Assembly (NCBI GenBank): GCA_023250585.1
Contig: JAHFAK010000014.1
Location: 1-11,639, forward strand
DNA: 11,639 bases
Origin: Deltaproteobacteria bacterium
GTDB lineage: Bacteria; Bdellovibrionota_F; JAHFAK01
Direction of reading: 5' to 3'
Shown: positions 5,486 through 11,639 of the stretch, in pieces
How the letters are laid out: every line of letters begins with the position of its first letter
Numbering within the stretch: position 1 is the stretch's first letter
Notes under the pieces: model-generated
Databases searched by the model: none
The model's input: only the letters and a program-made list of their open reading frames with translations
What the model was told of the DNA's origin: nothing
Made by a program: the position numbers and the translations under genes

Positions 5486-6406
5486 ATGAAAATTAGTGTT
5501 GTTGGTGCAGGAAATGTTGGGGCGACTACTGCTCAATATCTTCTTGAAGAAAAACTGGCGGATGAGCTTGTTGTCGTTGATGTTGTTCCAGGGCTTGCAA
5601 AAGGCAAATGCCTTGATTTTCTTGAAGCTTCACCACTTCGACATTACCCAATTAAAGTTGCCGGGACAGAGGATTTTTCAGAAATTCGTAATTCAAATAT
5701 CATTGTAATTACTGCTGGAATTGCACGAAAGCCAGGAATGAGCCGGTTAGATCTTCTTAAAACAAATGAAAAAATTATGAAAGATGTTTCAATTCATATT
5801 AAGACTCATGCTCCGACTGCTGTGGTACTTGTTGTTTCAAATCCTCTTGATGTTATGTGCTATGTGGCTTTAAAAACCACCGGATTTCAAAAAAATCGTG
5901 TGTTTGGTATGGCAGGAGTCCTTGATACATCTCGTTTTCGTTATTTTGTTGCTGAAAAATTACGAGTCAATCCCGTGGATATTCAAGCAATGGTGCTCGG
6001 TGGTCATGGTGATGAAATGGTTCCAATTATTTCTACGGCAACAATTTCTGGAATACCACTGACACATTTTCTTAACAAAACTCAGATTCAAGAAATTGTA
6101 GAAAGAACACAAAAAGCCGGCGCCGAAATCGTATCGTATTTAAAAACGGGAAGCGCATTTTATTCTCCTGCTGCGTCGGTTGTTGAAATGGTTAGATGCC
6201 TTGTCACCGATGTACAAAAAATACTACCGCTTGCCTGTTACTTAGAAGGTGAATATGGAGCTTGCGATCTTTACTGTGGAGTTCCTGCAAGGCTTGGCCG
6301 AGGTGGAGTTCTTGAGATTATCGAAATGAAATTAAATCCCGAAGAAAAAGAAGCTTTTGGAAAATCTATTACTGCAGTAAAGGCATCCTTACAGGAATTA
6401 AAATAA
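5486..6406 (+). CDS. mdh: malate dehydrogenase, LDH-like type
   Basis: It oxidises malate to oxaloacetate with NAD in central carbon metabolism. The start is the ATG at 5486 with AGGAGG at 5476-5481, which gives 306 residues. The longer in-frame TTG start at 5444 adds residues with no family match before the first beta strand. The Rossmann motif G-A-G-N-V-G is at 7-12, and Asp32 at the end of strand two favours NAD over NADP. Arg81 and Arg87 in R-K-P-G-M-S-R bind the substrate; arginine at the specificity position means malate rather than lactate. N-P-L-D lies at 119-122, Asp147/Arg150 in G-V-L-D-T-S-R, and the catalytic His174 in G-G-H-G-D. All expected residues are present. It lies 77 bases after nadK and is closed by a long hairpin, so it is probably its own transcription unit. 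I see no convincing promoter in the gap. Confidence 0.95.
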   Translation: MKISVVGAGNVGATTAQYLLEEKLADELVVVDVVPGLAKGKCLDFLEASPLRHYPIKVAGTEDFSEIRNSNIIVITAGIARKPGMSRLDLLKTNEKIMKDVSIHIKTHAPTAVVLVVSNPLDVMCYVALKTTGFQKNRVFGMAGVLDTSRFRYFVAEKLRVNPVDIQAMVLGGHGDEMVPIISTATISGIPLTHFLNKTQIQEIVERTQKAGAEIVSYLKTGSAFYSPAASVVEMVRCLVTDVQKILPLACYLEGEYGACDLYCGVPARLGRGGVLEIIEMKLNPEEKEAFGKSITAVKASLQELK

Positions 6407-6415
6407 GATGCGATA

Positions 6416-6532
6416 AGCGAGAGTGTCTATGTTCTTTTTTTGTTTTCTCTAACGACGTGGTTCAATTAAATAATTAAGAACGGGGTAACCACGCTCGTTA
6501 GAAAACAAAAAAAGAACATAGACACTCTCGCT
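6416..6532. repeat. near-perfect long hairpin after mdh
   Basis: The left arm (6416-6462) and right arm (6487-6532) are reverse complements over about 46 bp. The only differences are a two-base bulge (CT in the left arm near 6449) and a small indel near 6456. The loop at 6463-6486 is 24 bases. The left arm contains a run of seven T and the right arm the matching run of seven A. The hairpin starts about 10 bases after the mdh stop. No U-tract follows the right arm, so it is not a standard intrinsic terminator, although it could still block transcription or protect the 3' end of mdh mRNA. The blocks GATAAGCGAG (6412-6421) and TATGTTCTTTTTTT (6428-6441) recur after hslV at identical spacing, which suggests a dispersed palindromic repeat family. 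Confidence 0.85.
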
Positions 6533-7612: not shown

Positions 7613-8641
7613 ATGAAATTAAAACATGAAAAATATACTTTAGAGTTAAGTTCAACACGAAGAATTGCGAGTGGTTCATTTGATAGTAAAGATAATATCC
7701 TTGTTAATTTATTTTTTGAAAACATACAGGGAATCGGGGAAGCAGTTCCTATTCATCAATTCAATGAAGATTATATATCAATTGATTCATGGTTTGATTC
7801 AATCCAAGAGGACATTCCTGCAAATCCTGAGGAAATAAAAAGTACTGCTGATCTTTTAAGCGAGAAGAGAGTACCCAATTCAGTTATCGCTGCAATTGAT
7901 ATGTGTCTTTATGATATTATGGGAAAAATAAAACGTACGTCGCTGTATTCGATGCTTGGGCTCTTTTATATCCCCCAAGGGCCTGTTTCAAAAACTATTT
8001 ACATCAATACTCCCGAAAAAATGATTGAACAAGCGATTCGTTTTAAAGGCTACCCCGTCATAAAACTCAAAATAAATTCAGAGATGGATTTAGACATGGT
8101 AAAAAAAATCCATGATGCGAGCGGATACAGCAAGCTGATTATCGATAGTAATGAAGGATGGGGTGTTGATGAAGCAATCGATAAAATTCGTTTCTTAAAA
8201 AAACACGAATATATTCTTTTTTTCGAACAGCCAATCCGTGCACGCAATCTTTCGGGGCTTGAGGAAATTAAACGAAAAGTTAATGCTTCTGTATTTCTCG
8301 ATGAAGATATTATTACACTTAAAGATCTCGATGACACGCGTGGGCTAGTCGATGGAGTAAGTTTAAAAATTCAAAAATGCGGAGGAATTTATAAAACAAT
8401 TGAAATGATTACTCGAGCTCGAAAAAACAATTTTAAAGTTCTTTTAAGTTCGTATACTGAAAGTGCTATTTCAATAACCGCAGCTTCTCATTTAATTCCA
8501 CTGGTCGATTTTATCGATCTCGATGGCAATATTTATGTGACTAATGAAAAATATTCAGGAGCGTATATTGATGCAAAAGGGAATATGATTATTCCTTCAA
8601 GACCGGGAATAGGACTGACCGCAATTAATGCACTTCATTAA
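7613..8641 (+). CDS. dgcA: enolase-superfamily epimerase (DgcA / L-Ala-D/L-Glu epimerase type)
   Basis: The 342-residue product has an N-terminal capping domain and a barrel of the muconate-lactonizing-enzyme subgroup. The acid/base lysines are Lys153 in K-L-K at 151-153 and Lys252 in L-K-I-Q-K-C-G-G at 251-258. The metal ligands are Asp178 (I-I-D-S-N), Glu205 (F-F-E-Q-P) and Asp230 (F-L-D-E-D). Near the C-terminus D-L-D at 302-304 matches the Asp-x-Asp motif that, in B. subtilis L-Ala-D/L-Glu epimerase, holds the dipeptide amino group. So it may epimerise Ala-Glu muropeptide fragments, or act as the N-acetyl-glutamate racemase DgcA beside dgcN. The sequence alone does not settle which. AAAAAAGG at 7601-7608 precedes the ATG by 4 bases. 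A palindromic element begins inside its stop codon. Confidence 0.85.
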   Translation: MKLKHEKYTLELSSTRRIASGSFDSKDNILVNLFFENIQGIGEAVPIHQFNEDYISIDSWFDSIQEDIPANPEEIKSTADLLSEKRVPNSVIAAIDMCLYDIMGKIKRTSLYSMLGLFYIPQGPVSKTIYINTPEKMIEQAIRFKGYPVIKLKINSEMDLDMVKKIHDASGYSKLIIDSNEGWGVDEAIDKIRFLKKHEYILFFEQPIRARNLSGLEEIKRKVNASVFLDEDIITLKDLDDTRGLVDGVSLKIQKCGGIYKTIEMITRARKNNFKVLLSSYTESAISITAASHLIPLVDFIDLDGNIYVTNEKYSGAYIDAKGNMIIPSRPGIGLTAINALH

Positions 8642-8765
8642 GGAACCTCTACAAAGGCCCATCTGCATCGTTGCATGTAAAACCACAATCCTCACATACT
8701 ATCAAAGTATGCTCCGGTTGTGGCTTTGCATGCGCCTCGCATCTGGACCTTTGTAGAGGTTCCTT
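8640..8765. repeat. imperfect palindrome between the convergent dgcA and khpA genes
   Basis: The outer 18 bp pair perfectly (8640-8657 with 8748-8765). Inside, about 40 more bases per arm pair in blocks, for example GCATG, CCACAA and CATACT, around a 5-base loop near 8701. Some inner differences would be U-G wobbles in RNA. The repeat overlaps the dgcA stop codon. Taken as 8641-8764 it is flanked by the triplet TTA on both sides (8638-8640 and 8765-8767), as a short target duplication would be. No T-run follows either arm, so it is not a canonical terminator. It may act as a bidirectional transcription barrier or be a small non-coding mobile repeat. It carries no ORF and no transposase. Confidence 0.8.
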
Positions 8766-8795
8766 TATATACAATTTTTTCAGAGAGTTTTAAAG

Positions 8796-11045: not shown

Positions 11046-11573
11046 ATGTTTCACGCAACTACAATTCTTGCAGTTAAGAAAGATAACCATATTGCAATTG
11101 CTGGCGATGGCCAAGTTACTTTTGGCCATTCGGTTTTGAAGAGCAAAGCAAAAAAAGTTCGAAAAATATTTAATGATAAAATCATCGTAGGTTTTGCCGG
11201 TGCTACGGCAGATGCCTTCACTTTATTTGATAAATTCAATGAAAAGTTAGAAAAATATAATGGTAATATTACGAGAGCATCAGTTGAGTTAGCTAAAGAT
11301 TGGAGAACGGACCGAATCTTACGTCGCCTTGAAGCGCTTATGATTGTTGCGGATAAAGATAAAATTTTTACCATTTCAGGAAGTGGAGATGTAATCGAGC
11401 CTGATGATAATATTGCTGCAATTGGATCCGGCGGTCCGTATGCACTTTCTGCTGCGCGAGCTCTTATGAACTTTTCTCCATTATCTGCCGCTGAAATTGT
11501 ACGCGAAGCCATGAATATAGCAGCTGATATTTGTATCTTCACGAATAAAGAGATTGAGGTATTAGAATTATGA
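11046..11573 (+). CDS. hslV: ATP-dependent protease subunit HslV (ClpQ)
   Basis: It is the proteolytic chamber subunit of the cytoplasmic HslUV (ClpQY) protease. The 175-residue protein is full length. By alignment with E. coli HslV the nucleophile is Thr5 in M-F-H-A-T-T-I-L, with Asp21 (G-D-G-Q-V-T) and Lys37 (A-K-K-V-R-K) in the Asp17 and Lys33 positions. G-S-G-G lies at 127-130. The four residues before Thr5 resemble the longer N-termini of Bacillus and Staphylococcus ClpQ and must be trimmed or tolerated. The ATG directly follows the xerC stop, with AAGGA at 11034-11038. The partner ATPase hslU is not in the window. The 66 bases after the stop hold a hairpin arm instead of an immediate hslU start. 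Confidence 0.95.
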
Positions 11574-11639
11574 TAAGCGAGCAGCGATATGTTCTTTTTT
11601 TATTTTGTATCGATCGCGCTTTCTGTTCTTAATAGTATT
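11572..11639. repeat. second copy of the mdh-type palindromic repeat, cut by the window end
   Basis: GATAAGCGAG (11572-11581) overlaps the hslV stop and is followed after 6 bases by TATGTTCTTTTTTT (11588-11601). Both blocks are identical to 6412-6421 and 6428-6441 and have the same spacing. The 6-base box between them differs: CAGCGA here, AGTGTC there. The right arm is not in the window. By analogy with the mdh copy it should start within about 10 bases past the end. Confidence 0.65.

Follow-up and report, generated by a model that had tools for sequence, protein, structure and literature searches.

The window, the whole 11,639-nucleotide stretch analysed here, stands at the start of a scaffold of 27,590 bases (G000:C44:1-11639) and harbours two related hairpins. 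The first, complete at 6416..6532, is located between mdh and a DUF1611 gene, with the mdh-like gene (5486..6406, + strand; Ldh_1_N, E 4.9e-40; Ldh_1_C, E 9.1e-36) immediately upstream. It was delineated by its fold, by the match between its arms and by a covariance model. Its 33-nt arms (6416-6448 and 6500-6532) are 100% complementary and enclose a core in reverse orientation: our covariance model, R1, matches at 6418-6530 on the minus strand with a score of 90.2 bits. The fold has an energy of -69.7 kcal/mol as compared to a shuffle mean of -26.1 (z = -12.1). In agreement with the initial annotation, the six-base box of this copy, AGTGTC, is paired exactly by GACACT, within arms that are perfect over all 33 nt. 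A scan of the window against Rfam 15 yielded 0 matches above the gathering score.

The second hairpin lies between hslV, which encodes a proteasome-type peptidase (11046..11573, + strand; PF00227, E 3.1e-35), and the downstream ORF (L160:96-1445), which by sequence is HslU. The paired arm starts 3 nt after the hslV stop codon. The left arm, AGCGAGCAGCGATATGTTCTTTTTTT, spans 11576..11601 (+ strand) and is followed at 11602..11639 (+ strand) by the inner arm and conserved core, ATTTTGTATCGATCGCGCTTTCTGTTCTTAATAGTATT (core profile match at 11610-11639), which is cut by an assembly gap of 10 N (bases 11640-11649) inside the loop. Two blocks had been noted to keep equal spacing in the two hairpins, and they do: GATAAGCGAG-CAGCGA-TATGTTCTTTTTTT is found at 11572-11601 and GATAAGCGAG-AGTGTC-TATGTTCTTTTTTT at 6412-6441. 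It had also been predicted that an arm containing AAAAAAAGAACATA, TCGCTG and CTCGC lies past base 11639. We read the next contig bases, and the complementary arm is there, right after the gap: the predicted letters are all present, followed by a T (CTCGCT), and C44:11650-11675, AAAAAAAGAACATATCGCTGCTCGCT, is the exact 26-nt reverse complement of 11576-11601. The covariance-model match to this hairpin covers C44:11578-11673. A third copy, of the same TIR-less kind (see below), is located 3' of hslU (C44:13057-13167), and hslU is thus flanked by two hairpins.

Both window hairpins are members of a repeat family that has about 80 copies across the 2.24-Mb genome, nearly all of them intergenic. 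A profile of the core only gave 79 matches, or 78 distinct copies after one duplicate was dropped, in the 1.79 Mb of genome searched (overlaps included), and the covariance model, built from 10 copies, recovers largely the same set. Among 58 other genomes, a single one of them in the same class, the model has no match; since the lineage is isolated, these genomes are nearly all distant relatives. A search for named relatives with HslV likewise returned distant matches only, the best at 68% identity. The core pattern is also absent from the viral contigs searched. Each unit consists of an asymmetric, conserved core of ~39 nt flanked by complementary arms of ~37-47 bp. At the level of the family, two elements of the initial description had to be given up. 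GATAAGCGAG is not a fixed family block, as it occurs 6 times in 1.79 Mb and is hairpin-associated only in the two window copies, where its GATA falls outside the paired arm; and there is no discrete six-base box between two fixed blocks, the box being a piece of an outer arm that is hypervariable and about 10-23 bp long.

The repeats are short, non-autonomous DNA elements of MITE-like type. Both inverted ends, GTAATCCCTCAGTTAT and GTAACAGCTCAGTTAATGGGGGAG (GTAA...TTAC), are present in 38 copies, with scores of 19-40 against a shuffled maximum of 15. These TIR-bearing copies are ~157 bp long and make up about half of the family. An 8-bp target duplication is exact (8/8) in 13 of them and matches at 7/8 in 7, i.e. 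at least 7/8 in 20/38; by their anatomy the 38 copies are MITEs. A further 35 copies, including the one next to mdh, are TIR-less, and here a target duplication was seen in 0/35, with none beyond permutation. The TIR-less group includes both window copies; the hslV copy, whose loop is cut by the gap, is assigned to it as judged from its flanks and stands outside the count of 35. Most likely, TIR-less copies are older, stripped derivatives.

Parent transposons of MITEs are often lost. Our search of 1.79 Mb found no end pair with a duplication that is longer than 161 bp, and no transposase with matching ends was found either by this end-pair search or by looking for PF03050 and PF03400 in the genome. 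GTAA ends and 8-bp duplications are features of IS66-type elements; we rejected an IS66-type origin, there being no IS66 transposase (PF03050) in the genome, as well as an IS1 origin (no PF03400).

The initial annotation proposed that changes in the box are copied across the stem, and the collected genomic copies bear this out in that boxes covary between arms. In the 10-copy alignment, 23/36 outer-stem pairs have changed on both sides while 99.7% of outer-stem cells are paired; overall, 99.8% of pair cells are standard pairs, falling to 41-45% when partners are slid by one base. The core profile ignores the outer arms, so that arm statistics of copies located by the core only are not selected for pairing: 59 of the 73 measurable copies have no mismatch, and the 73 together have 25 among 2753 pairs. 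Five more copies are out of register, of which two are paired save for a one-base homopolymer shift, one is boundary-cut yet paired, one has no right half any more, and L239 combines two arm types as a chimera. Per 34 nt, copies differ from each other at a mean of 7.7 (TIR-bearing) and 13.1 (TIR-less) positions; within-copy mismatches in the same subset, which favours well-paired copies, number 0.03 and 0.13. Comparison of nearest-neighbour copies, again in a subset biased to well-paired ones, gives 247 paired differences versus 5 unpaired positions. The two arms of a copy thus resemble each other more closely than arms of different copies do. Unpaired or chimeric arms do occur (L239, L178-, L220, L208). 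The left and right arms of L239 (C140, about 139-250) resemble two different arm variants, which suggests recombination between dispersed copies.

One could ask whether misassembled palindromes or coincidence make the arms look matched. The assembly gap in the loop of the hslV copy is in keeping with such an artefact, but we regard it as extremely improbable, given that about 78 copies reside in independent contexts with loops nearly all complete, that the mdh hairpin is complete and folds at the z given above, and that intact copies carry exact target duplications.

Functional RNAs are customarily recognised by covariation of their paired bases. The hairpin might accordingly act in the transcript, as a between-gene mRNA stabiliser, processing site or terminator, with compensatory mutations keeping the stem, and the strong fold, the covariation and the many copies between codirectional genes, hslV-hslU among them, are all what one would expect. 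So stable a stem may also have some effect where it separates genes such as hslV and hslU. However, an RNA stem would tolerate G.U above other mismatches, and the mismatches between arms (GT 8, AC 5, AA 4, TT 3, CT 2, CC 1) show no such enrichment: G.T accounts for 8/23, against a neutral expectation of 0.17-0.30 from random single mutations. Gene context, assigned with a simple ORF caller, follows the background without a 3'-end bias. T-type copies are distributed as 18 codirectional, 8 divergent and 3 convergent and copies with an A-rich arm centre as 17, 13 and 5, where the respective background is 54/33/13% of intergenic bases or 70/15/15% of junctions. Relative to codirectional genes, core orientation is 18:18. 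The T-run lies within the stem and not 3' of it; an intrinsic terminator was rejected on this ground and since 21/73 copies sit between divergent genes and 8 between convergent ones. Neither gene context nor core orientation of the copies gives any sign of a terminator or a strand-specific RNA role. As RNA-level selection would also leave the block corrections and spacer inversion described below unexplained, we consider it unlikely. The covariation looks DNA-level rather than RNA-level, and a host function is unnecessary to explain the pattern.

Several footprints, read from copies compared within one genome rather than from orthologous sites, point to copying of DNA. The first concerns a 3x3 mismatch that flanks the core, (G/T)CG opposite ACG, in 58/65 parsed copies. 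While it stays uncorrected in most copies, 4 copies now have a paired block in its place; the template was the right arm in L163, L217 and L223+ and the left arm in L215-. Second, T-run length varies from 4 to 8 across copies and is the same in both arms in 30/32 T-type copies. Third, in four TIR-bearing copies the tracts extend outward into the inverted ends: in L211- and L161- TIR2 was made TIR1-like, and in L219- and L169- the reverse has happened (L219- is also short of about 10 nt in both arms). Finally, the core is flipped. As the arms are symmetric, we abandoned an arm-relative reading of core orientation and read it relative to the inverted ends, where the ratio is 18:16; between the sister copies L186+ and L240+, neither arms nor core differ in sequence, yet the core points the opposite way.

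We therefore favour, as the probable explanation, a MITE-derived palindrome family whose arms are homogenised by DNA template switching and not by RNA selection. As inferred from the footprints, the long palindrome would fold during replication and the polymerase would switch template from arm to arm. A mutation in one arm would thereby be copied into the other arm or erased, copying tracts could extend outward beyond the arm, and the intervening core could be flipped. The stem sequence would then drift with its complementarity kept, without selection on RNA. 'Copied' is probably to be taken literally, as copying of DNA, because stepwise compensatory selection would not readily yield multi-base corrections, outward tracts and core inversions. 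Core inversion could also stem from homologous recombination between the arms, which is not separable here from template switching.

Arms could, on the other hand, be healed only during transposition, when a folded single strand moves and its mismatches are repaired before or at insertion. Intact copies do keep their ends and target duplications, core orientation already differs between sister copies that are nearly identical, and the genome has four matches to the REP-type single-strand transposase Y1_Tnp, one of them below the cut-off (G000:C13, C32, C47 and C69). Yet target duplications of 8 bp speak for a transposase of the cut-and-paste rather than the single-strand type, and TIR-less copies, which show no signs of recent movement, are about equally well paired (mismatch 1.1% versus 0.8%). 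We hence judge healing restricted to transposition to be improbable. In-place correction and correction during transposition are not separated by our data except in the TIR-less copies without visible recent movement.

Simple template switching alone does not account for the high variability of the outer arms of TIR-less copies, which are far more variable than the inner arms and core. In T-type copies, which are mostly TIR-less and occupy narrower intergenic spaces (39 nt remaining at the median, versus 106), an inner identity of at least 0.97 goes with an outer identity of 0.71 (two pairs only) and an inner identity of 0.8-0.88 with 0.62, the shuffled value being 0.55. Outward template switching may be a partial account of this variation; it leaves the conservation of the inner arm and core unaccounted for. 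Near-independence of outer boxes from inner ancestry would be expected if the boxes came from the target, i.e. if the unit inserted into, or made, an inverted local duplication. Against this, the outer boxes have a common, purine-rich, GAG(T)-type pattern that aligns with GGGAGTAGG of the TIR-bearing copies. Moreover, the 5' side of TIR-less outer arms has a purine fraction of 0.76 and a GC content of 0.54 in a genome with 0.36, unlike random flank, and target duplications were not found at TIR-less copies. A target origin of the boxes is accordingly quite unlikely. It is also doubtful, in our assessment, that this is a mobile element with structural inheritance, in which arms are rewritten fast, with new outer boxes in nearly unchanged interiors, and a dedicated process rather than background template switching keeps the arms complementary and flips the core. 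The TIR-less copies L178 (18640-18756) and L225 (411-532) share the rare interior GTCCCATGA and the core and have different outer boxes, which hints that these boxes change faster than the rest.

The genome contains other hairpin repeats. An unrelated one lies in the window at 8637-8768 (AAGGAACCTCTACAAAGG ... CCTTTGTAGAGGTTCCTT, with an interior of ~90 nt); it has 21 matches in 1.79 Mb, and in its family the arms are 3% mismatched, with some paired differences. A further family has ATACTAAGTTGCATTCAAA arms around CGCTAACTGCGTTGGCTTCG... and numbers 26 copies with arms, mostly identical between copies (L175:12983-13106, L176:9603-9727, L177:9834-9958 and others). In these two families, whose arms measure 17-20 bp and whose loops are longer, pairing is less perfect (mismatches 11/360 and 11/498), which fits a dependence of pairing on arm and loop length. 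A second MITE family (L193:415-570, L265:5099-5254, L293:2428-2585 and L177:7182-7342) has the same GTAA ends and exact 8-bp duplications with a different interior hairpin, GAAGATGGATCCCGTGG-TCAAG-CCACGGGATCCATC; the same GTAA ends thus carry different hairpins.

The process that we invoke is known; what is new here is the MITE family and an unusually clear and extensive natural example. As strong covariation apparently arises here from DNA copying and not from selection, the family could be used in the testing of covariation methods, both as a benchmark and as a counter-example. Furthermore, with its ~80 natural loci in parallel, the length and direction of template-switch tracts and the inversion of spacers could be measured in a bacterium.

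Published work describes arm homogenisation and spacer inversion as outcomes of template switching between the arms of inverted repeats (PMC8604942), and such switching has been proposed as creator and maintainer of RNA hairpins (PMC8794818). Our family resembles the quasi-palindromes studied in these reports and in E. coli reporters (PMC7202029) in that imperfect pairs are made perfect blockwise and both ways, the intervening loop or spacer becomes inverted, and paired changes appear together. It differs in comprising ~80 elements scattered over a single bacterial genome, with a core flipped about 50:50 and arms of ~37-47 bp, whereas the cited cases are short repeats, reporters or single loci. 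With bacterial MITEs the family shares its size of ~157 bp, imperfect inverted ends, 8-bp duplications, intergenic location and multiple copies, and a second family with the same ends; unlike in these, the interior stem varies with pairing kept, about half of the copies are without ends and the parent was not found. REP/REPIN elements and their TnpA-REP (PMC3116915, PMC3733652, PMC8266576) are likewise extragenic palindromes in many copies, and Y1_Tnp proteins are encoded in this genome. REPs are 20-40 bp long with GTAG or CGTC tags (PMC3733652), while the elements described here are ~115-157 bp long with GTAA ends and 8-bp duplications; membership was rejected, since the arms are ~37 bp each and the aligned copies have no common GTAG/CGTC tag at the hairpin base. 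Lastly, the RHE of sponge mitochondria (PMC2800124) are also dispersed, near-perfect hairpins whose function is not known. In those elements the stems are conserved and the loops vary (PMC2800124); in the family described here it is the loop-side core that is conserved and the stems that vary.
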